A stretch of 35,497 bases of DNA. Source: Myxococcales bacterium (GTDB lineage Bacteria > Myxococcota_A > UBA9042). The position numbers and the translations under genes were made by a program. This document shows positions 21,451 through 35,497 of the stretch, piece after piece. The notes beneath the pieces were generated by a model that ran no database searches, was not told the DNA's origin, and saw only the letters and a list, made by a program, of their open reading frames with translations. Positions within the stretch are counted from its first letter, which is position 1. Each line of letters begins with the position of its first letter. The DNA is taken from contig JAGSHB010000053.1 in assembly GCA_023954815.1 (NCBI GenBank), positions 1-35,497 of the forward strand, written 5' to 3'.

Positions 21451-24400
21451 ATGCACCGCCGGATCTCGCCCCTTTTTATCATTGTCCTCACCGCCGTCCT
21501 GACACTCGCAGCGTGTAGCGATACGCAGACGACTGAAGAGGATGTCAGCAGCGACGCGGGCACCTCCTCGGATGCGGAGGCGCCAGGGGATACGACAACG
21601 ACGACCACCGACGTCGCCGTGCGCAAGCCCATCGATGTTTTTGCCTGTCCCGGCGGGCACAACTGCGAGTGCGCGCAACACAGTGACTGTCTCAGCGGCC
21701 TCTGTTTCGATTCTGGTGATGGAAAGCGCTGCGCAGAACCCTGTGAGCACGTTGACTGCCAAGGAGCGCGCGTGTGTCGGCGCGTGGTGCTCGGTGGCAA
21801 GGGCGGATTTGTCTGCGTGCCGCCTCGGGTCAACCTGTGCAACCCGTGCAAGACCTCTACTGCGTGTGAAGCCATCGGACTAAAGGACTCTGCTTGCGTC
21901 GACTACGGCGAGCGCGGCGCCTTCTGTGGCGCGGCTTGCTTGGGCGATGCCGATTGCGGCGAGGGCTACACCTGCCAGATGACCACCGCAATCGAAGGCA
22001 CAGCCAGCTTGCAGTGCGTGCGAGTCGACAAAAGCGGGCTGCTAGCGGACTGCGAGTGCAGCGAGGACGCGATTAAGGGCGAATTGGAGACGCTGTGTAC
22101 AAATACCGGCGATGGAACGGGCGGCGCGTGCAAGGGCAAGCGGAAGTGCGGTGCGGCTGGGCTCACGAAATGCACCGCTCCCGCACCCACCGCTGAAAAG
22201 TGCGATGGCGCCGACAATGACTGCGATGGTCAGACAGATGAGGACACGTGCAGCGACAACAATCCTTGCACTGACGACAGCTGCGACATTCAACTCGGAT
22301 GCGCCAACGCCAACAACAACCGTGGATGTGATGCCGATGGCAGCGTGTGTACGGCTGACGACAAGTGTGATGGTGGTGCATGCAAGGCTGGCAAGCCCGT
22401 GACTTGCGACGATGGCGACATCTGTACGAAGGACGCTTGCGACAAGACCAAGGGCTGCGTATTTGAGGGCGAAACCGGAGCGGCCTGTGACGCGGACGGC
22501 AGTCTTTGCACTGCCAGCGACAAGTGTGTCGCGGGCGTCTGCACCGCGGGCGCGCTCAAGGATTGCGATGACAAGAAGGCTTGCACCATCGACGCTTGTG
22601 ACGGCAAGACGGGCAAGTGCAGCAACACCCTCGTGCCACACCTGTCCTGTGATGATGGCAACCCCTGCACCCACACTGATCTGTGCGACGAAAAGGGCGG
22701 ATGTGCGGGCAAAAAGGTGAGTTGCGACGACGGCAATCCGTGCACACAGGGTGCTTGCACAAAAGATCTCGGATGCACGTCCACCGCTGTCCCGGATGGC
22801 GCGAGCTGCGACGATGGCAACTTGTGCACGGCAGCGGGCACCTGCGTTTCTGGTCAGTGCGCGGGCGCCAAGGCGAAGGTTTGCACATCCAACAAGACGT
22901 GCGTTGCGAGTCTTTGCGACGGCAGCACTGGTACATGTAAGGAACAGGCAGCAAAGGTTGGCGCGCTGTGCACCGATGGAAATGCCTGTACCAGCTTTGA
23001 CGGATGCGATGCCCAGGGCGTCTGCAAGGGCTCAGCCACGAAATGCAACGACTTCAATGCGTGCACCAAAGACAGCTGCGACAAGACGAAGGGGGGCTGC
23101 CAAAATGTGGCGATCTCCGGTGCGTGCGACGACGGCGACGCCTGTACCGTAGGCGAAACGTGCAGCGGAAAGGCTGGGGCTGTGACCTGCGGCGGCGGCA
23201 AACCGAAAGACTGCGACGATGGCGAGCCCTGCACGACGGATAGCTGCAAAGGCGGATGCGTCAATACAGCGCTGAAGGACGGCGCGGCGTGCTCGGACGG
23301 CAAGGAATGTACGAAGCCCGACAGCTGCAAGGCCGGCAAGTGCAAAGCTGGGCCGGATACCTGTTCCTGCTCCAAATCGGCTGACTGCGACGACAGCGAC
23401 CCATGCACGACGGACACCTGCGGTTCGGACAGCAAATGTAGCTCAACGCCCGGAAAATCAGGCGATTCGTGCGATGACGGCAACCCGTGCACCACCGCTG
23501 ATACTTGCCAATCGGCGGATGGCAAGCTCACTTGCGCCGGCGGCAAGCCAAAGGTCTGCGACGACAAGAACCAGTGCACAACCGACAGCTGCGACCCCAA
23601 GACGGGATGCACCAGCAAGCCCAAGGCAAACGGCGCGACCTGCGACGACGGCGAGCCCTGCACCGATAGCGATGCGTGCGCGTCGGGCAAGTGCGTCGGT
23701 AAGCCCAAAACGGCTGCGGTGGGTACCTTGGCGGGCAGTGGTCAGGGCTTCAAAGATGGCACGGGCGCGTCGGCGCAGTTCAACGTGCCCACAGGTCTGG
23801 CGTTGGCCGCTGACGGGGCTGTCTACGTCGCCGATACGTTCAACCACCGGATCCGCAAGATCACCAAAGATGGCAAAGCGACGGTGCTGGCCGGAGGTCC
23901 GCTGGCCGGGCAGAAAAACGGCGCGGCGCTCAGCGCTTCGTTCAACAAACCGACTGGTATCGCCATCGACGGCGCGGGTAACCTGTACATCGCCGACCGC
24001 GACAATCACCTCATCCGCAAGATCGCCAAAGATGGCACCGTGTCGACGGTGGCCGGTAGCAATGAGCCAGGTGGCTTCGGCCAACCCTTGAAGGGCGGCT
24101 ACAAGGACGACAAGGGCACTGCGGCGAAGTTCAACAGCCCGTCAGCCTTGTTCTTGGCCGGTGGTGCGCTGTACGTGGCCGACACCGGCAACAACCGGGT
24201 CCGCAAAGTGACCCTCGCTGGCGTGGTGACGACCGTCGCTGGCAGCGGCGCGGCTGGGTTCGCCGATGGCAAAGGCACCGCGGCGAAGTTTAATGCTCCC
24301 GCCGGTATCGTGAGCAGCGGCGGCGTGCTTTACGTGGGTGATACGGGCAACCACCGCGTGCGCAAGATCGCCGCCGACGGCACGGTGACAACCCTGGCGG

Positions 24401-24738
24401 GCAGCGGCACAGGTGGGTTCAAGGACGGCAAAGGCACGGCGGCGCAGTTCAATGAGCCCATGGGTCTCTGGGTCGATGGCCTCGGTGCGCTGCTGGTCTG
24501 CGACAACAAGAACCATCGCATCCGCACCCTCAAGATGGACGGCACGGTGACCAGCTACGCGGGTGCGGGCGACCAGGACTATAAAGAGGGTGACCTCGGC
24601 AAGGCCAAGTTCGACCAGCCGTCAGCGATTGTGACCGACGGGAAGGGCAAGTCGTGGATCGCTGACCGCGGCAACCATCGCGTGCGCAGCATCAACGACG
24701 GACCCAAGACCTGCGCCATCGCAAACCAGGGCGACTAG
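21451..24738 (+). CDS. Large Cys-rich lipoprotein with MopE motif and NHL propeller
   Basis: A 1095-residue lipid-anchored surface protein. The signal peptide ends in a lipobox at Cys22 (LAAC), followed by an Asp/Thr-rich linker. Residues about 65-245 are irregular Cys-rich. EKCDGADNDCDGQTDEDTC (around 250-268) is the MopE-type putative metal-binding motif. Residues 268-750 carry many CDDGNPCT-DxCD repeats, each likely Ca-binding and disulfide-linked. From about 752 to the end there are six NHL repeats (each AGSG..G..FKDGxGxxAxFNxPxGIA...LYVADTxNHRIRKI), enough for a complete six-bladed propeller. It probably binds a partner or polymer outside the cell (inference). GGAG lies 5 nt before the ATG. 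Confidence 0.88.
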   Translation: MHRRISPLFIIVLTAVLTLAACSDTQTTEEDVSSDAGTSSDAEAPGDTTTTTTDVAVRKPIDVFACPGGHNCECAQHSDCLSGLCFDSGDGKRCAEPCEHVDCQGARVCRRVVLGGKGGFVCVPPRVNLCNPCKTSTACEAIGLKDSACVDYGERGAFCGAACLGDADCGEGYTCQMTTAIEGTASLQCVRVDKSGLLADCECSEDAIKGELETLCTNTGDGTGGACKGKRKCGAAGLTKCTAPAPTAEKCDGADNDCDGQTDEDTCSDNNPCTDDSCDIQLGCANANNNRGCDADGSVCTADDKCDGGACKAGKPVTCDDGDICTKDACDKTKGCVFEGETGAACDADGSLCTASDKCVAGVCTAGALKDCDDKKACTIDACDGKTGKCSNTLVPHLSCDDGNPCTHTDLCDEKGGCAGKKVSCDDGNPCTQGACTKDLGCTSTAVPDGASCDDGNLCTAAGTCVSGQCAGAKAKVCTSNKTCVASLCDGSTGTCKEQAAKVGALCTDGNACTSFDGCDAQGVCKGSATKCNDFNACTKDSCDKTKGGCQNVAISGACDDGDACTVGETCSGKAGAVTCGGGKPKDCDDGEPCTTDSCKGGCVNTALKDGAACSDGKECTKPDSCKAGKCKAGPDTCSCSKSADCDDSDPCTTDTCGSDSKCSSTPGKSGDSCDDGNPCTTADTCQSADGKLTCAGGKPKVCDDKNQCTTDSCDPKTGCTSKPKANGATCDDGEPCTDSDACASGKCVGKPKTAAVGTLAGSGQGFKDGTGASAQFNVPTGLALAADGAVYVADTFNHRIRKITKDGKATVLAGGPLAGQKNGAALSASFNKPTGIAIDGAGNLYIADRDNHLIRKIAKDGTVSTVAGSNEPGGFGQPLKGGYKDDKGTAAKFNSPSALFLAGGALYVADTGNNRVRKVTLAGVVTTVAGSGAAGFADGKGTAAKFNAPAGIVSSGGVLYVGDTGNHRVRKIAADGTVTTLAGSGTGGFKDGKGTAAQFNEPMGLWVDGLGALLVCDNKNHRIRTLKMDGTVTSYAGAGDQDYKEGDLGKAKFDQPSAIVTDGKGKSWIADRGNHRVRSINDGPKTCAIANQGD

Positions 24739-26869: not shown

Positions 26870-27592
26870 ATGTCACCTGTCGATCTGCAATTTGTGGCGG
26901 TAGCGGCCCTGGCTGGCTTCACCCAAACCGTCGCCGGCTTTGGTTTCATGTTGGTCGCTAGCACCCTCGGCGCGCTGGTGGTGCCGGTCAGCGAGATCGT
27001 GCCGCTCGCGTTGCCTATGTCGATGATGAGCTCGAGTTGGGTGGCCTTCGATCAGCGGCGACTCATCGACAAGCGCTTGCTCGGTTACGTCATCTTGCCA
27101 GCCATGGCCGTGGGGGCCGCGGTTGGTTTTGTACTGAGCGGCGTGCTGCCAGCGGACTTCATGCGAAAGCTGCTCGGCGTTTTGGTGCTGGGTTTTGTGG
27201 CGATGCGCGTACTGCGACGCGGGCGCGTACCCTCCGCGTGGCCAGCCTGGCTGCGTTCGGGCGTTATCGTCATCGCTGGCGTGGTGCAGGGGCTCTTCGG
27301 CACCGGCGGGCCCCTGTTGGTGCTGGCGATGGAGGGCAGTCGTCTGCCGCCGCAAATTTTTCGGGCCACGTTGATCTCCGTGTGGGCGCTGATGAACTCG
27401 GCGCTTGTGACCGCGCTGTTTATCGATGGTCGTTACGATATGACTGTGGTGATGCGCATCGCTCAAGCGATCCCGGCATTGGCCCTGGGCGTCTGGGCGG
27501 GGCAGCGATTGCACGCGCGCCTGTCGCCGAAGCGCTTTCAGGCCAGCGTCTACGTGATGTTGACCGCTGCCGCGCTGTCGCTGCTCCTGTGA
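26870..27592 (+). CDS. TSUP-family (TauE/SafE) membrane exporter
   Basis: A 240-residue inner-membrane protein with about eight hydrophobic segments, of the sulfite exporter TauE/SafE family (TSUP), which move sulfur-containing or small organic anions. Both inverted halves show the family signature: GFTQTVAGFGFMLVAS in half one, GVVQGLFGTGGPLLVLAME in half two. Length is typical (240-270). The ATG is 14 nt after AGGAG, unusually far, and that site is in the structured leader. Divergent from the acyl-CoA synthetase gene. The last 43 bp overlap the 3' end of wecB on the opposite strand. Substrate not predictable; it need not be sulfite. Confidence 0.87.
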   Translation: MSPVDLQFVAVAALAGFTQTVAGFGFMLVASTLGALVVPVSEIVPLALPMSMMSSSWVAFDQRRLIDKRLLGYVILPAMAVGAAVGFVLSGVLPADFMRKLLGVLVLGFVAMRVLRRGRVPSAWPAWLRSGVIVIAGVVQGLFGTGGPLLVLAMEGSRLPPQIFRATLISVWALMNSALVTALFIDGRYDMTVVMRIAQAIPALALGVWAGQRLHARLSPKRFQASVYVMLTAAALSLLL

Positions 27593-28749
27593 CCGCTGAC
27601 CGGCGCCCCTGGGTGCTGTTGGCGCCACAACCCCGCTTCAAGTGAGGCCGCGATCCGCTCTCCGGCCTGTCCATCGCCATAGGGGTTGTGCGCGATCGCC
27701 ATGGCCCGCCACTTCGCCTCGTCCGTCAGCAGCTCGCTCACGGCTTCCACGATCGCTGCGCGCTCACTTCCGACCAGCATCGCGCAGCCGGCTTCCACGC
27801 CCTCCGGCCGCTCCGTCCGCGCGCGCATGACGACCACCGGCACACCAAACGAAGGCGCCTCCTCTTGCACGCCGCCGGAATCGGTCAGCACCAGATGCGC
27901 ATGGGCTAGCAGCGACACAAACGCGCCGTACCCCACCGGCTCGATGAGGACCACATTGTCGTGTGTACCTAGCGCTGCATGCATCGGCCCCTTGACGTTC
28001 GGGTTGAGATGCACCGGATAGACGAAGTTCACGTCGGGAAATCTGTCCGCGAGCGCGCCAATGGCCTGACCGATCTGCGCGATGCCAGCACCGAATGACT
28101 CGCGCCGATGACAGGTGATCAGCACCAAGCGCTGGCCGTTTTCAAGAAAACCAGCTGGTAAATCAGGAATAACGGGCGGATTGAGTGAGACAAAGTCTCT
28201 AGCTAGTCGCAGGGCATCGACGACCGTGTTGCCCGTTACGGAGATCCTTTGCTCGTCCACTCCTTCAGCCCGTAGGAACCGCGCAGCCTGTTCGGTAGGT
28301 GTCCATAGCCACTGGGCGATCAGATCTACCACGCGCCGATTGGCCTCCTCGGGGAAGGGTTCCGTCATGCTGTGCGAACGCAGGCCCGCTTCGACGTGGC
28401 CGACCGGAATGTGGCGGTAAAAGGCAGCGAGCCCTGCTGCCATAGCCGTGGTCGTATCGCCCTGCACGATGACCGCGTCGGGTTGCAGGCGCTCGAGCTC
28501 GGCATCCACTGCACCGAGACAGCGCGCGGTGAGGTCCGCCAAGGTCTGGTTCGGCCGCATCAGATCGAGGTCGATATCAGGCTCAAACCCGAGCACGGGT
28601 AGCATCTGGCGCAGCATTTCGCGGTGCTGGCCGGTGCTGATGACCGTGACCCGAAACCGGTCGCCACGGCGACGGAGCGCGTGGATCACCGGCGCTTGTT
28701 TGATGGACTCCGGGCGCGTGCCCAAGACGACGACGATGTGCTGCTTCAT
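27550..28749 (-). CDS. wecB: UDP-N-acetylglucosamine 2-epimerase (non-hydrolysing)
   Basis: A 399-residue WecB converting UDP-GlcNAc to UDP-ManNAc. Motifs: GTRPESIKQAPVI at the N-terminus, QGDTTT (Asp95 position in E. coli), HVEAGLRS (Glu117), PEEANRR (Glu131), TCHRRES (His213), NPNVKG, and TDSGGVQEEAPSFG for the nucleotide. E. coli WecB is about 376 residues; this one has a 20-residue C-terminal extension that overlaps the TSUP gene end. The ATG at 28749 follows GGGGGTGAG, a fair ribosome-binding site. It diverges from the NfrA-like gene 147 bp away. In E. coli the N4 glycan receptor pathway needs WecB-made UDP-ManNAc with NfrB and NfrA, exactly the gene set placed here. Confidence 0.93.
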   Translation of the reverse strand: MKQHIVVVLGTRPESIKQAPVIHALRRRGDRFRVTVISTGQHREMLRQMLPVLGFEPDIDLDLMRPNQTLADLTARCLGAVDAELERLQPDAVIVQGDTTTAMAAGLAAFYRHIPVGHVEAGLRSHSMTEPFPEEANRRVVDLIAQWLWTPTEQAARFLRAEGVDEQRISVTGNTVVDALRLARDFVSLNPPVIPDLPAGFLENGQRLVLITCHRRESFGAGIAQIGQAIGALADRFPDVNFVYPVHLNPNVKGPMHAALGTHDNVVLIEPVGYGAFVSLLAHAHLVLTDSGGVQEEAPSFGVPVVVMRARTERPEGVEAGCAMLVGSERAAIVEAVSELLTDEAKWRAMAIAHNPYGDGQAGERIAASLEAGLWRQQHPGAPVSGHRSSDSAAAVNIT

Positions 28750-28896
28750 GCTCACCCCCCGATGCTGTGGGGCACCTGCAAATATAGCGCTCGTCGCGGT
28801 CATTACGAGGGTTCGATTGGTCTTGCAGTCTGTAATTCGAGGTCTTTATTGAAGGGCGAAGGCGGAGCGTTGCCGTGCCCCGCCGGGGAGGTCGCC

Positions 28897-30102
28897 ATGG
28901 CACATGGAGACTCGCAGGCCGCCGTAATCCGCAGCCCCAACCCGCCGATCCCTCTCCCGCCACCCAGCCGGCATCCAGCGCTGGGTCACATCGCGCTGGG
29001 TCACATCGCGCTCGTCATGGTCCTCGCTGCGGTCCTTACCGTAGGTGTGGTGCCAGTGGTGCAGGCGGCCCCGAACCCGGCTGTCGCATCGCTCAACACC
29101 GGATTTGCCAAGCAGCGCGCCGGAGACGGTCCAGCGGCCAAAGTGGCGTTCGAACGCGCCCTGAAAGATCCCGCCACAGCCCAGCGCGCTCACATGGCCC
29201 TCGGTTACCTCAACCTTCGCCAGGGTGACGCTGCCGCGGCGAGGCAGCACTTCGTCGCAGCCAAGCTCGGGGACGACGCGGCATTGGCTGGCCAGGCGCG
29301 TGCAGCGCTGCGCACCATGCCGCGTCACCTGTGGGCCGACCTCTACTTTGAGGGCTATGGCTGGCACCGGTTGACGGACCCATCGACCACAAACCTCGTT
29401 CCCCTGCTTCGCGGCCGGCTGTTCTATCGGCCCTCGCTCGATCACGACGTCCACCTGTACGGGTTCGCGCAAGTCTCCCGGGACACGCACTCCCGGGCGA
29501 GCGGACCCAATGGCTACCCACTCATCTACGCAGATAACACCGCCTTGGTTGGCGCAGGAGCCCTGTGGCGACTTTGGGACGGTAAAATCGGGCTTTTCGC
29601 GCGAACTGGGCCAGCGATGAGCCTGCTGAAGAGCGGCGCACCTACTTGGGCGTGGGATGGTCGCGCTGGGGTGTTTAGCGGCGCCCAATCCGACCTGTGC
29701 ACAGCGCGCTCGACGGGCTTGTGCTTGCAGGGATACGGCGAGGCTGTCTGGGTCAATCGCTTCGATGTCTTTGACGACCCCGAGTGGCGCAATGGCTTCG
29801 ACAACAACGTCGTCGTCATGGCGAGGCTGCGCGCGGACTACGGTGTCCTGATGACCGGCCCCGTGCGCTGGTCCCCCTACGTGGAAGCGCGCGGTCTCGT
29901 CGACCGCAACGGCAACTATTACAACAACCTCATCGACGCTGGTGTTGGCCACAGATGGCGGCTGTTGGGGCGGGTGCCCTTGGACCTGCTCATCGGTGTG
30001 CACGCCGGGACCTACACGGGTCGCACCAAGGACCAAACGGAGACGCTCCCCGACCCCTACATCGAGCTGCGGACGCAGTTCGGTACGTACCTTCAATTTT
30101 AG
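28897..30102 (+). CDS. NfrA-like outer-membrane barrel with TPR
   Basis: A 401-residue exported protein. The N-terminus is long and Pro-rich, with a hydrophobic segment at about 32-55 (HIALVMVLAAVLTVGVVPVVQA) ending in AQA-like cleavage. Two TPR-like helical pairs follow (residues 60-120: AVASLNTGFAKQRAGDGPAAKVAFERAL, then AHMALGYLNLRQGD). The rest alternates short amphipathic beta strands (RGRLFYRPSL, HLYGFAQVSRD, VVVMARLRADYGVLM, YVEARGLVDRNGNYYNN) and ends with Phe (TYLQF), the outer-membrane beta-barrel C-terminal signature. The domain order matches E. coli NfrA (about 990 residues, more TPRs) but is much shorter. It should export the polysaccharide. The ATG follows GGGGAG by 6 nt. NfrB begins 9 bp after its stop. 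Confidence 0.76.
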   Translation: MAHGDSQAAVIRSPNPPIPLPPPSRHPALGHIALGHIALVMVLAAVLTVGVVPVVQAAPNPAVASLNTGFAKQRAGDGPAAKVAFERALKDPATAQRAHMALGYLNLRQGDAAAARQHFVAAKLGDDAALAGQARAALRTMPRHLWADLYFEGYGWHRLTDPSTTNLVPLLRGRLFYRPSLDHDVHLYGFAQVSRDTHSRASGPNGYPLIYADNTALVGAGALWRLWDGKIGLFARTGPAMSLLKSGAPTWAWDGRAGVFSGAQSDLCTARSTGLCLQGYGEAVWVNRFDVFDDPEWRNGFDNNVVVMARLRADYGVLMTGPVRWSPYVEARGLVDRNGNYYNNLIDAGVGHRWRLLGRVPLDLLIGVHAGTYTGRTKDQTETLPDPYIELRTQFGTYLQF

Positions 30103-30111
30103 GAGGGCGCC

Positions 30112-32919
30112 ATGAGTCATCAACTCGACACCATCATCTTCGTGGTGGCTTGGATCGCGGCAGCCATCATCCTGTTCAACAGCTTCGATGACCTCTTCAT
30201 CGACATCGTCTACTTCATGCGCGGTCTCGGGCGGAGTCGGCATCGCGACCTGACCGTTCAATCCCTGCGTGACCTCACCCAGCAGCGGGCGGCGATCATG
30301 GTGCCGGCTTGGCAGGAAGCACCGGTCATCGCGAGCATGCTGGAAAACACCATCACCACCCTCGATTACGACGCGGCGAACTACGACATCTTCGTCGGGA
30401 CCTACGCCAATGATCCGGAGACCCAAGCGCAGGTCGACGCTCTCGCCGACCGCATCGCTCAGGTTCATAAGGTGGTGGTGCCCCACGACGGGCCGACTTC
30501 GAAAGCGGACTGCCTCAACTGGATCTACCAGGGCATCGTGCAGACCGAGCAGGCCCGGGGTGTGCGCTTTGATTTTCTGGTGATGCACGACGCCGAAGAT
30601 GTGGTTCATCCGCTGGCGCTGCGGCTGTACAACGCCCTGATCCCGCAGCATGACTTCGTGCAGACCCCGGTGCTGCCGCTCGAGGTGCCCCACACGGCGT
30701 GGGTGGGCGGCACGTACATGGATGAGTTCGTCGAGCAACACCTGAAAGATCTGCTGGTTCGCGGCTCCATTGGCGGTCTGGTGCCGTCGGCTGGTGTGGG
30801 TAGCGCATTTGCACGGGACGCCTTCGAAGCTATCGCGCTGGCAGATCGCCAGCAGGCCTTTGATCCGGCCTCTTTGACGGAGGATTACGATATCGGCCTG
30901 AAATTCCGGCTCGCAGGGCGCGATACCTACTTTGCAGCCCACGCCATCGCCCGGGACGACGTCGGCGCTGACCATGGTGAGCTGGCTGACGGCGACGGCG
31001 CCGGTGAAGCCGCAGAGCGAGGCGACGGACCGCGGCACGAGTTCATCGCCACACGCGAGTACTTCCCCATCAAGTTCTGGAATGCGGTGCGACAGCGCAG
31101 TCGTTGGATCTTGGGTATCACCCTGCAGGAGTGGGCCAAGATGGGCTGGAAGGGCGACCGCGCGGTCATCTACACCTTGTTCCGCGATCGCAAGGCGCTC
31201 TTGATTCACGTGGGCGTGTTCCTGGGCTACGTCGCCTTCGCGTACGCCCTGGTACGCATGGCCATCGCTTGGTGGACCGGGGCGGCTTGGTCGATTGCGC
31301 AGATCATCCCGCCGACGTCGCTGCTGTGGTGGGTGGTGTGGATCAACCTCGGATTCCTGACCTGGCGCGCTGTGATGAAGTTTAAGGTGGTGCGACGGAT
31401 TTACGGTGCCAAGCACGCTCTGCTCAGTTTTCCGAGGTTCGTCGTTGGCAACGTCATCAACTTCTTCGCCGCCGTGCTGGCGGTTCGCCAATTCGTCGCA
31501 TCGAAGATTACCGGCGAGCCCCTGCGGTGGATCAAGACCGATCACGACTATCCTAGCGCCGCCGCTTTGGCCGTGTTCCGCCGCAAGCTGGGTCGCCTGC
31601 TAGTGGACCGTGAGGGGTTGAGTCGGGCGCACATCCAAGCCGCGCTGGCCGTGCAGAGAAACAGCGGTGTGCGGCTCGGTGATGTGCTGCTGGCCGAGGG
31701 CGAGCTCTCCGAGCGGCAGCTGGCGCGGACATTGGGCGCGCAGCATGCGATGGATGTGCTGCAGCTCGCTGACCACACGCTCGTCGATACGCTGGTATCT
31801 CGCGTGCCAGAAGCGCTCGCGGCCAAAATGGGGGTGTTGCCGGTCTCCGTGGACGCTGATGGCGCCGTGCGGGTGGCTACGAGTCGGCCGTTGTCAGAGG
31901 CAGAACGACGTGAACTCGAGACCCTGCTCGCTGCGCCAGTTCGGACCAGCATCGCCGCCGCCGACACCATCGCAGAGCGCAGAGAGCGGATGTGGCGCCA
32001 GATGCGGTTGGGGGATACCGCAGTTCCCCACGCTCGCCTGGGCGCTAGGCTGGTCGCCACCGGCGTGCTGACGTCCGAAGAGCTCGACGAAGCGCTTGCG
32101 CGGCAGCGGGCCACTGAGCAGCACCTAGGTGAATTACTGGTGGCTGAGGGGCGCATCAGCCCAGAAGAGTTGACCCGCGTGGCGTCCGGGCAATTGCACG
32201 ATGGATTCGTCGCCGTCACTCCGGCAGATGTGGACGAAACGGCGCTAGAAAGCCTTGGATACGGGGTTTGCGCGCTCAACACGCTGGTCCCGATGCGGCG
32301 CGATCAGCAGCTTGAGATCGCCTCGGCTCACCCGGTTCACCGGGATGTGCGGCGTCGCCTTCGTGACCGGTTGGGCGTGCAGGTACCGTTCCGCTTGGCG
32401 CCTGAGTTGGATGTGCGGCTAGCGCTCGCGGTGGTCAGCAGAAAGGTCTGGCCGACCCATCGCCTGGTCGGTAGTCCGACGATGGATGGTGCTGAGCTCG
32501 CCCTGCTTCACAGCGAGCTGAACTGGAGCTCGGACCGTTGCAACGCCCTGGCCGCCACAAGTCGCGTACGCAATCTGGCCCCGCTGGATTGTCTGCTCAC
32601 TGAGGGGCGGGTCACGGCAACAGAGGTCGCTAGGCTTCGCGCCTTGTCCCTCGGGTTGGACCCCGACACAGCGGTGGTCGGTGGTACCGACCTGCCGACA
32701 GAGGCCACCGACTGGCTGCCGCCGCGCATGGCCCACGAAGACGTGCAGCTCATCAGCGCTGAGGTAGGAGCGTTGGTGGTGACCTCGCCGAGGCCGACGC
32801 CAGCGCTGGCACGCCGCGTGGCGCGTATGTTCCCCGACCGCGCCATTCGCTGGTGCGTGACGCCCATGGCGCCGGACACATCCGCTGCGCCGCGCTTGTC
32901 GGGAAGGAGGGCATCATGA
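30112..32919 (+). CDS. nfrB: NfrB-like GT2 synthase with c-di-GMP-binding MshEN domains
   Basis: A 935-residue inner-membrane processive glycosyltransferase. N-terminal TM at about 7-30, then a GT2 domain: HDAED (160-163) and EDYDIGLKFRLAG, and QRSRW (Gln328-Arg331-Trp332), the processive-synthase QxxRW motif. Further TMs lie around 363-390, 397-421 and 440-465. The C-terminus is MshEN/GspE_N-like: pairs of RLGxxLxxxGxxxxxxLxxxLxxQ motifs at 492/520 (K-type first copy), 642/671 (R then H), and a degenerate third module from about 805. MshEN binds c-di-GMP, as reported for NfrB of E. coli. It should polymerise a ManNAc-like sugar from the WecB product. Stop overlaps the receiver start (ATGA). 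Confidence 0.9.
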   Translation: MSHQLDTIIFVVAWIAAAIILFNSFDDLFIDIVYFMRGLGRSRHRDLTVQSLRDLTQQRAAIMVPAWQEAPVIASMLENTITTLDYDAANYDIFVGTYANDPETQAQVDALADRIAQVHKVVVPHDGPTSKADCLNWIYQGIVQTEQARGVRFDFLVMHDAEDVVHPLALRLYNALIPQHDFVQTPVLPLEVPHTAWVGGTYMDEFVEQHLKDLLVRGSIGGLVPSAGVGSAFARDAFEAIALADRQQAFDPASLTEDYDIGLKFRLAGRDTYFAAHAIARDDVGADHGELADGDGAGEAAERGDGPRHEFIATREYFPIKFWNAVRQRSRWILGITLQEWAKMGWKGDRAVIYTLFRDRKALLIHVGVFLGYVAFAYALVRMAIAWWTGAAWSIAQIIPPTSLLWWVVWINLGFLTWRAVMKFKVVRRIYGAKHALLSFPRFVVGNVINFFAAVLAVRQFVASKITGEPLRWIKTDHDYPSAAALAVFRRKLGRLLVDREGLSRAHIQAALAVQRNSGVRLGDVLLAEGELSERQLARTLGAQHAMDVLQLADHTLVDTLVSRVPEALAAKMGVLPVSVDADGAVRVATSRPLSEAERRELETLLAAPVRTSIAAADTIAERRERMWRQMRLGDTAVPHARLGARLVATGVLTSEELDEALARQRATEQHLGELLVAEGRISPEELTRVASGQLHDGFVAVTPADVDETALESLGYGVCALNTLVPMRRDQQLEIASAHPVHRDVRRRLRDRLGVQVPFRLAPELDVRLALAVVSRKVWPTHRLVGSPTMDGAELALLHSELNWSSDRCNALAATSRVRNLAPLDCLLTEGRVTATEVARLRALSLGLDPDTAVVGGTDLPTEATDWLPPRMAHEDVQLISAEVGALVVTSPRPTPALARRVARMFPDRAIRWCVTPMAPDTSAAPRLSGRRAS

Positions 32920-33392
32920 CCATCGTCAATCCACAGGCACCGTCTACCAACAACCCGGCCGATGTTCCGGTTGTGAACGCGACGTCACCCCAAGGCGTGT
33001 CGCCTGGCCCAGCCCAAAAGGCGCTTTCGGTTCTGATTATCGGCCAGGAGCGCGTATTCGAGCGAATCCTAGCGGCTTGGCTCGAGGAGGCTGGCTGGCG
33101 CGTTCACGTGGCCCAGAGCTATCGCGCGGCGCTCACCCTGCGTCACGATCCACCAGTCGATGTGATCGTTGGAGATCTGGATGGCGAGGACCTCGATGGG
33201 CTCGAGTTTGCGACTCGGCTGGCAGACCGACCGTCGGCGCCGCCGGTGGTGTTGACGACCCACGCGCCAAGCGTCGCTCACTGGCGCCCAGCAGACCTCC
33301 GTCAAGTGGGCGTGTCCCGCATCATCCTGCGGCCGTGTCACCTCTCTGATGCAGGCGCGACCCTGTCGGCCGTCGCGCAGGAGGGCAGCTAG
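32916..33392 (+). CDS. Receiver-like (REC) domain protein, atypical
   Basis: A 158-residue protein with a Pro/Ala-rich N-tail (residues 1-35) and a CheY-like domain: strand ALSVLIIGQE, helix VFERILAAWLEEAG, VHVAQSYRAALTLR, then DVIVGDLDGEDLDGLEFATRL with the phospho-acceptor Asp, the conserved Thr in VVLTTHAPS, and IILRPCHLSD in place of the usual (K)P. The conserved Lys is Arg, so phosphorylation may be lost or altered. The N-terminal acid pair is also reduced (IGQERVF). No output domain or kinase is in the window. Start ATG at 32916 follows AAGGAGG and overlaps the NfrB stop by 4 bp. Probably an accessory regulator or protein-interaction module of the polysaccharide system. Confidence 0.8.
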   Translation: MTIVNPQAPSTNNPADVPVVNATSPQGVSPGPAQKALSVLIIGQERVFERILAAWLEEAGWRVHVAQSYRAALTLRHDPPVDVIVGDLDGEDLDGLEFATRLADRPSAPPVVLTTHAPSVAHWRPADLRQVGVSRIILRPCHLSDAGATLSAVAQEGS

Positions 33393-33425
33393 GACACCCA
33401 GCCAACCTTCCCAGGTGGCCGGTCC

Positions 33426-34022
33426 ATCCCGCGATCCCCGTGGCGTGGTGCCGCGGTTTGGCTTTGCCTGCTGATGCTGTCCGGCGCCGGGTGCGCCAGT
33501 GAGGTCGTCGCGCCACCGGCCACCGACGCAGGTCCTGGCGCACACTGGCGAGCAGACGCCGCCTGTGACGGGTGGTGTCTCCCGCCGCTCGAACAGGCCT
33601 GCGACCGGGTCATCAGCTGCACGGTCGCGCGCTGTGACGACTGGGGATGGCGGGCAGCCGGGGCCCGCCACGTCGATTGCGCGGGGCAGCTCACATCCAA
33701 GCCCGATCTGCAGCAGGCCGTCCTTCTCGCCGCCGATTGTACCGCGGTTCACAGCATCGTGACGGGCGCAACGCTTCCCATCGTGACCACCTGCGGCCTG
33801 CCGAGCTGTGCCCGTGCCTGTGCGCGGGTGGCGGGCTGCATCATCTCCGGCTGTCGGGGCTTCGCATCGTCCATGAGACAAACCCTCGTCAGCAACTGCG
33901 AAGCGAGCTGCAGTGCACAGGGTGCTGCCTGGGTCTTCGAGACCTCTTGCGCGGAACAGCTCGCGCAAATGGCCGAGTCCGATTCCAGCTTTTTGCCCAG
34001 ATGCAGGGGGCCGTCACCATGA
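33426..34022 (+). CDS. Cys-rich lipoprotein; start unclear (ATG at 33474 lies inside the signal peptide)
   Basis: The only in-frame ATG (33474) leaves just MLSGAGC before the lipobox, too short for export. In-frame codons upstream encode a proper signal peptide (PRSPWRGAAVWLCLLMLSGAGC), but from the TAG at 33390 up to there no ATG, GTG or TTG exists in frame. The ATC at 33426, 7 nt after AGGTGG, is the best candidate; a sequencing error is the alternative. The mature part is helical with about 17 Cys, including C-x3-C pairs (CDGWC, CTVARC, CARAC), stabilised by disulfides in the periplasm or surface. No family recognised. Its stop overlaps the CotH start by ATGA, so it belongs to the Nfr operon. 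Confidence 0.65.
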   Translation: MPRSPWRGAAVWLCLLMLSGAGCASEVVAPPATDAGPGAHWRADAACDGWCLPPLEQACDRVISCTVARCDDWGWRAAGARHVDCAGQLTSKPDLQQAVLLAADCTAVHSIVTGATLPIVTTCGLPSCARACARVAGCIISGCRGFASSMRQTLVSNCEASCSAQGAAWVFETSCAEQLAQMAESDSSFLPRCRGPSP

Positions 34023-35446
34023 ACAGCGCTGCAAAAAAACCGCTGTCCTTTGGCCATCACCGTGTGGGGATTTGTCTGCTGCTGATGCTCGCGATGGGCG
34101 CCACGGCCGCCTGCACATCGGAGCCATCTCCGCCCCCTCAAGCAGCGCCGCCGCGTAGCCTGGGGCCTGTGGATGAAACGTGCGCGCAGCTCGGGGCAGC
34201 AGATCCCGTCGACGGGTCGGGCGCTGTACGGCGGTGTCTCTTTGATGACCACGCGGCACCGCGCCACTTTCAAATCGACGTCGACCCTGGGCACCTGTCC
34301 TGGTTGCAGAAACACGCTCGACAGGAAGCCTATGTACCCGCTCAGTTGACGTTTGGTGGTCGGAAAGTTGCCGCTGAGGTTCGATTCAAAGGCGGCGACA
34401 GCACCCTGCATGGATGCTTCGATGACAGTGGCGCGCTGGTGTGCCCGCGGCTGTCGATCAAGGTGCGCGTAGCGGGCGGTGGCCGCTTTATGGGGCTGCG
34501 CCGCTTCATCTTCAACAGCAGCGTGCGTGATCCGACCTACCTGCGAGAGCGGCTGTCGTATCGCCTCTTTCGTGATGCGCAGGTGCTGGCGCCGCGGGCC
34601 GTCCATGCCTGGGTGCGGCTCGGTCAGCGTCCCCCGGCTCTGTATCTGCTGGTGGAGGACATCGATGCCCCCTTTCTCAACGCCCGCTTTTCCTTCGCGA
34701 CCGGCAACCTCAGCAAGCACGTTTGGTTTTCGGACTCCAAGCCCGACCACTGGCACAGTCACCAGATCACAGGGCCTGCCAGCTCTGCCGCTCGGCCCGT
34801 GGCGTTTGCGACCCTCCTCGATCAGCTGAAAAGCCTTGAGTTTACCGAGTTTTCCAAGGATTTTGTGAAAAAGTCGCTCGGCTGGGTGGATCTTGATGTG
34901 CTCGCCCGGTGGTTGGCCGTGGACGTCTTCATCGGCAATTGGGACGGCCCACGTGGTCGCTACTGTGGCGAGCAGACGGGGCCGGATGCGGCCTGCAAAG
35001 CGCACAACTTCTACGTCTACGATGACCCGGGCTCCAAGCTGCTGGTCCTGATTCCCTGGGACCTGGACCTGACCTGGCCCCGCGTCGACACCGACATGGG
35101 CCGTGACTGGTGGCTGGACGACGCCTGCGAGGTCTACTCATTCGGCGGTCACACACCCATGCAGCGGGTGCAGTGCGATCCCATGTGGCTCGGGCTGACC
35201 CGGGTCCGGTGGCAGGCCTACACCGGCGCGCTGTCGACGATGCTGGCGACCGATTCCGTACTTGACCCCCATCGTATCCACCGGCTGATCGACCGCTACC
35301 GCGCGATGGTCGCGCCGCTGCTGCTGCAAGATCCAACGGCGCCAAGTGTGAGCGAGTGGCAGGCTGAGGTCGCGCGACTTCGGGCCCTGGTGACAGCTCA
35401 GGCGGGTCAGGCTTGGTCCGTCGCACATTGGAAACCGCCGCAGTGA
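34019..35446 (+). CDS. CotH-kinase family lipoprotein
   Basis: A 475-residue exported kinase-like protein. The signal peptide ends at a lipobox Cys32 (GATAAC). The CotH domain shows VRFKGGDS (Lys124 region), LSIKVRV, LYLLVEDIDAPFL, the Asp-rich active site IGNWDG (Asp309), and the closing IPWDLDL (Asp348/Asp350), with NFYVYDD between. CotH proteins are secreted protein kinases (spore-coat CotH of Bacillus) or are linked to polymer modification. Here it sits in a polysaccharide export operon, so a cell-surface phosphorylation role on a coat or glycan-associated protein is possible (inference). The ATG at 34019 overlaps the lipoprotein stop; AGGGGG precedes it. The last gene of the window, with 51 bp of no visible content after it. 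Confidence 0.84.
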   Translation: MNSAAKKPLSFGHHRVGICLLLMLAMGATAACTSEPSPPPQAAPPRSLGPVDETCAQLGAADPVDGSGAVRRCLFDDHAAPRHFQIDVDPGHLSWLQKHARQEAYVPAQLTFGGRKVAAEVRFKGGDSTLHGCFDDSGALVCPRLSIKVRVAGGGRFMGLRRFIFNSSVRDPTYLRERLSYRLFRDAQVLAPRAVHAWVRLGQRPPALYLLVEDIDAPFLNARFSFATGNLSKHVWFSDSKPDHWHSHQITGPASSAARPVAFATLLDQLKSLEFTEFSKDFVKKSLGWVDLDVLARWLAVDVFIGNWDGPRGRYCGEQTGPDAACKAHNFYVYDDPGSKLLVLIPWDLDLTWPRVDTDMGRDWWLDDACEVYSFGGHTPMQRVQCDPMWLGLTRVRWQAYTGALSTMLATDSVLDPHRIHRLIDRYRAMVAPLLLQDPTAPSVSEWQAEVARLRALVTAQAGQAWSVAHWKPPQ

Positions 35447-35497
35447 AACGATCAGCATTAAAAGCCGATGACATCGAATGATTGGCCTTGAAAACCA

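Follow-up and report, generated by a model that had tools for sequence, protein, structure and literature searches.

An NfrB-type synthase locus with a stand-alone receiver, and a neighbouring, probably separate lipoprotein-CotH gene pair

Gene content of the locus

The window, by which we mean the whole 35,497-nucleotide stretch analysed here, is one complete contig of a draft assembly of 314 contigs in total, and the view of the locus ends with it at position 35497. Six genes lie towards this end, at the positions given to them by an earlier reading of the sequence (the first-pass annotation), which gene calls and family profiles bore out. The genes, and the two motif regions within the synthase, are as follows.

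27550..28803, minus strand: wecB, a UDP-GlcNAc 2-epimerase of the non-hydrolysing kind; TIGR00236 445 bits (cut-off 210), PF02350 387 bits; likely start 28749, MKQHIVVVLGTRPE
28897..30102, plus strand: NfrA-like protein, with a signal region, a short TPR stretch and a probable C-terminal outer-membrane barrel; shortened form
30112..32919, plus strand: NfrB-like GT2 synthase, 935 aa, with C-terminal MshEN repeats; NF012033, PF13641, PF05157 (two stretches)
31588..31743, plus strand: first MshEN pair, LGRLLVDREGLSRAHIQAALAVQ and LGDVLLAEGELSERQLARTLGAQ; motif scan, PDB match to MshE 5htl (E 1e-10)
32038..32193, plus strand: second MshEN pair, LGARLVATGVLTSEELDEALARQ and LGELLVAEGRISPEELTRVASGQ; motif scan, NF053729 c-di-GMP motif 89 bits (cut-off 38)
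32916..33392, plus strand: stand-alone receiver; PF00072 43 bits
33426..34022, plus strand: Cys-rich probable lipoprotein; first ATG at 33474, the ATC start at 33426 being a guess; no family match
34019..35446, plus strand: CotH-family kinase-like protein with a lipoprotein-like signal; PF08757 112 bits

WecB, the NfrA-like protein and NfrB had been described as contiguous, and all three are present and adjoin one another, but wecB runs divergently from nfrA-like and the other plus-strand genes and is not co-directional with them. Both reported ATGA overlaps, nfrB/receiver at 32916-32919 and Cys-rich lipoprotein/CotH at 34019-34022, can be read directly in the sequence. The plus-strand genes are all closely spaced, receiver and lipoprotein being ~34-82 bases apart. 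Every reading frame is open, and Shine-Dalgarno-like sequences precede nfrA-like, nfrB and the receiver. Promoter and terminator scans of the window gave nothing above chance, including the sole terminator-like site (33438-33456), and the close spacing leaves room for co-transcription of the plus-strand genes in the window. The CotH gene stops 51 bases short of the contig end. Further upstream, positions 21451-24738 encode a 1095-aa protein that resembles a lipoprotein, with numerous Cys-rich repeats of the CDDGNPCT type (PF00526) and with NHL repeats at its C-terminus.

The synthase falls in a long-form NfrB clade

The NfrB-like protein shares 34% identity with E. coli NfrB over 725 aa (E 6e-118) and scores 619 bits on NCBIfam NF012033 (cut-off 537) and 520 bits on the NfrB equivalog NF008411, under its strict 1170-bit cut-off. 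The GT2 signatures TED (TEDYD) and QxxRW (QRSRW) are intact in the translation, and a motif scan, with NF053729 and PF05157 also matching, places four MshEN half-motifs at residues 493, 522, 643 and 672. These matches support the prediction of an NfrB-type synthase with c-di-GMP-binding motifs and an adjoining wecB, and, going by E. coli NfrB and the conservation of the motifs, the synthase would be gated by c-di-GMP.

The nearest relatives of the window NfrB are 54-57% identical, mostly long-form, and come from other families of the phylum, those of its own family being 37-43% identical over most of their length; no NfrB was found in the three genomes of the same genus (G003 among them). A maximum-likelihood tree places the window NfrB inside the long-form clade together with loci from other families (support 100/99), and the own-family NfrBs with E. 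coli NfrB (support 97/98), and on this placement we reject descent of the window NfrB from the family's own Nfr loci. The closest NfrB in the tree, at locus L217, has 500 residues and no MshEN, and a Rieske-like gene comes after it.

Partners of the synthase

At 401 aa, the NfrA-like protein is short against the 800-900 aa proteins at related loci, to whose C-terminal parts it is 38-42% identical. A Pfam scan returned only a weak TPR_16 match and no match to PF13283 (NfrA_C), which the same scan finds in E. coli, at L034 and at the own-family locus L117. Profile comparison with true NfrA was likewise weak (25-52% probability), whereas a comparison between E. coli-type and family-type NfrAs gives 99.9% probability, and a profile of the NfrA-like group recovered TPRs only when compared against the PDB. 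AlphaFold of the single sequence gave a pLDDT of 36 and nothing was drawn from the model, so that we infer the putative barrel; position and architecture make an export role likely. The scan which finds DUF4434 in E. coli and at L034 found no DUF4434/YbcH gene after nfrB up to the contig end.

The first-pass annotation had seen here the same parts list as in E. coli, which is too strong, as PF13283 and DUF4434/YbcH are both missing and the NfrB clade differs. The homology of NfrB and WecB would fit a plain E. coli-type Nfr/NGR system to which further genes have been added; this we consider highly improbable, given an NfrB clade that is distinct in the tree and tied to BcsB, the weak match to true NfrA, the lack of YbcH within the contig, and a PF13283 domain that is absent here yet present at a locus of the organism's own family.

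The related loci L212, L215 and L218 (by Pfam, PF03170) and L216 (by homology) carry BcsB beside the synthase. It is absent from the window, and a search of the window's own genome, run without a positive control, was also empty. These absences, together with the short NfrA-like protein and the 500-residue closest NfrB at L217, could be taken as signs of a decayed or incomplete locus that lost bcsB and most of the nfrA TPRs and no longer functions. We think this unlikely, though somewhat less so than the E. coli-type reading: the frames are open, neither the catalytic nor the MshEN motifs are disrupted, Shine-Dalgarno-like sequences stand before nfrA, nfrB and the receiver, and NfrB of E. coli functions although its operon has no BcsB (PMC8669469).

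The link to wecB recurs, as it adjoins the module at L212 and L213 (TIGR00236 above cut-off). From this linkage and by analogy with E. coli, UDP-ManNAc would be the substrate of NfrB. A second wecB elsewhere in the genome is 39% identical to that of the window, and the local wecB therefore need not be the sole source of UDP-ManNAc.

An atypical receiver linked to the synthase

The order nfrB-bcsB-receiver was found at all three long-form loci with a readable downstream side (L212, L216 and L218), with a bcsB/receiver start-stop overlap in L212; the window has no bcsB, and there the overlap of the receiver is with nfrB itself. The receivers at these loci are recovered by BLAST against the window receiver at 69-71 bits (L212, L218) and 51 bits (L216), compared with 43 bits for the top-scoring receiver across 21 further genomes from the order. 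A profile, itself built from those orthologues, scores them at 179-241 bits, with the next best among 89 other neighbourhoods at 74. Since the orthologues come after nfrB-bcsB in the nearest loci, gene order supports the assignment of the receiver to the synthase module, and to this extent the earlier claim that the extra genes are part of the unit holds. Judged from sequence, the long-form NfrB branch is thus a receiver-linked and normally BcsB-containing one, which widens the known make-up of Nfr-type loci.

In the pocket of the window receiver Asp87 and Thr115 are kept, the acidic pair is replaced by Gly43-Gln44 and the switch Lys by Arg139, leaving the canonical residue set of a phosphorylated receiver (acidic pair, phospho-Asp, Thr/Ser, Lys) incomplete. 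Arg139-Pro140 is invariant in the window receiver and its three orthologues, two of which have Glu in place of the phospho-Asp, and because the pocket is atypical in all four, canonical phosphorylation is doubtful. The receiver has no output domain and most likely would act by protein contact on the synthase complex, by analogy with EpsW and EpsZ of Myxococcus, where a single-domain response regulator contacts an exopolysaccharide enzyme directly (PMC12802240). The likeness has its bounds, as EpsZ belongs to a Wzx/Wzy pathway, in which it is a phosphoglycosyl transferase (PMC12802240), whereas the window receiver has an atypical pocket and a putative target.

A synthase branch that combines bcsB with an atypical receiver encoded in the operon suggests that a glycan synthase gated by c-di-GMP may also be controlled directly by a receiver. 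We tentatively propose, with rather more doubt than confidence, that long-form NfrB may be a two-input synthase which takes c-di-GMP through its duplicated MshEN and a second signal from an atypical receiver acting directly on the synthase or on BcsB, the window copy being a minimal version without BcsB. If true, exopolysaccharide would here be made by a synthase-dependent pathway under receiver control. Large receiver-like proteins, possibly c-di-GMP enzymes, also adjoin Nfr genes at L036, L037, L040, L043 and L048, on contigs of Verrucomicrobia, the PVC group and Kiritimatiellae.

The lipoprotein-CotH pair

The Cys-rich protein matched no family, and PHROGs returned nothing either. Translated from the ATG at 33474 it has no signal peptide, and an upstream start is needed for one: the frame, which is also that of the receiver, is open back to the receiver stop (33393-33474) and, ahead of its first ATG, encodes the lipoprotein-like signal RSPWRGAAVWLCLLMLSGAGC. 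No ATG, GTG or TTG occurs in this open part of the frame, the ATC at 33426 being the only plausible start seen. Its neighbour aligns with B. subtilis CotH (5jd9; E 6e-15) through the NxDG, HN and PWDxD stretches, which are invariant in three CotH homologues. The pair probably comprises a cell-envelope kinase-like enzyme, its activity predicted from homology, and a partner; both members look like envelope lipoproteins, a location in which the supply of ATP would be doubtful.

The same pair is present in the same-genus genome G003, on C116, with CotH 50% and the lipoprotein 45-50% identical and with the mature part and most Cys positions of the latter conserved. The G003 lipoprotein homologue (L220:9423-10184) lies before CotH and the ATGA overlap is kept. 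A second G003 pair, on C68, is more distant (lipoprotein 27-28%, CotH 38% identical). By its conservation in gene order and sequence, lipoprotein-CotH is an independent two-gene unit of the genus.

CotH domains are strongly expanded in this lineage, with 13 in the window's own genome, 9 in each of two genomes from the same genus and as many as 15 within the class. From the 13 domains, simple proportion predicts ~0.02 CotH genes at a distance of up to 5 kb from any one gene; a CotH beside nfrB is unusual for one named family, but with so many families that might have seemed meaningful it is unremarkable. Conservation of the neighbourhood in relatives had been named beforehand as the test of an Nfr-CotH system, and for CotH it is not conserved: a profile search of 97 other NfrB neighbourhoods (the 89 and eight more from the phylum, some on truncated contigs) found CotH at none. 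The seeds of this CotH profile included some antisense open reading frames, and it still recovered CotH at the 30 seed loci, in the window and at L220, L207 and L221.

Two adjoining modules

Because the Cys-rich lipoprotein and CotH recur as a pair in G003 without NfrB, and CotH is absent at the 97 other NfrB loci, we separate them from the synthase. The locus would then consist of two adjoining but separate modules, module A with wecB, nfrA-like, nfrB and the receiver, an NfrB-type system for synthase-dependent exopolysaccharide, and module B with the Cys-rich lipoprotein and CotH, a reading to which we assign a probability of roughly 0.83. The first-pass annotation had included the lipoprotein and CotH in the synthase unit and considered an Nfr-CotH combination undescribed; the pairing was indeed not found in the literature searched, and the comparative evidence stands against a system.

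A single system, in which NfrB makes a c-di-GMP-controlled ManNAc polymer, with CotH, in the same unit, phosphorylating either the glycan or proteins of the surface, could draw on the close spacing and common strand of the plus-strand genes and on two precedents, the CotH genes beside Gram-positive pel loci (PMC7112168) and the CotH-domain protein Sfz6 linked to the sfz stalk cluster, whose synthase is of GT2/EpsE-N type and which also has a BcsB-like protein (PMC8250860). Against it stand the neighbourhood counts, the existence of the pair without NfrB in a same-genus genome, the doubtful ATP supply for envelope lipoproteins, and the fact that NfrB and CotH are not named together in the literature searched. 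An Nfr-CotH system is not supported by these comparisons, and we regard it as very improbable.

Under the two-module reading, WecB would supply UDP-ManNAc, and NfrB, once its MshEN repeats have bound c-di-GMP, would polymerise the sugar and move the chain across the inner membrane. The NfrA-like protein would release the chain through the outer membrane, whilst the receiver would act on the synthase complex by protein contact. Module B may have been placed here by chance rearrangement, or may represent a local association not found elsewhere. The attractive Nfr-CotH system is thereby replaced by two testable units, and the lipoprotein-CotH pair, in a CotH-rich lineage, may offer a compact handle on CotH roles outside spores.

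Relation to known systems

NfrB homologues accompanied by wecB, a diguanylate cyclase, acetyltransferases or BcsB have already been described (PMC8669469, PMC8669472). The window shares with the E. coli NfrBA-YbcH/NGR system (PMC8669469, PMC8669472) a GT2 synthase with C-terminal MshEN, the link to WecB and a TPR/outer-membrane partner. It differs in its NfrB clade, in an NfrA-like protein outside PF13283, in the absence of YbcH, in a receiver gene in the operon, in a second MshEN pair with clean half-motifs and in its divergent wecB. The Achromobacter nfr cluster (PMC8669472) and the zetaproteobacterial sfz cluster (PMC8250860) combine a GT2 synthase of MshEN/EpsE-N type with a BcsB-like partner, as do the nearest relatives of the window. 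Compared by description, sfz has the BcsB-like Sfz1 and an EpsE-N/GT2 protein, Sfz2, with an N-terminal regulatory domain (PMC8250860), whereas the window is without BcsB; the CotH protein Sfz6 is loosely linked to sfz (PMC8250860). In Gram-positive pel loci, as in the window, a CotH-family gene adjoins an exopolysaccharide synthase locus, but there it is recurrent and accompanied by a polyphosphate polymerase and DUF4956 (PMC7112168), whereas the window CotH has a Cys-rich lipoprotein as its partner and forms with it a pair that does not depend on the synthase.

The Nfr loci of the organism's own family, in contrast to the window locus, resemble the E. coli system, with NfrB beside an NfrA (a PF13283 match at L117, the locus tested) and with a DUF2334 protein; some also have wecB close by. 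At L113 and L117 the DUF2334 protein is ~600 aa long, has a lipoprotein-like start and lies directly before NfrB, and at most other own-family loci NfrB comes after a protein of about this size.
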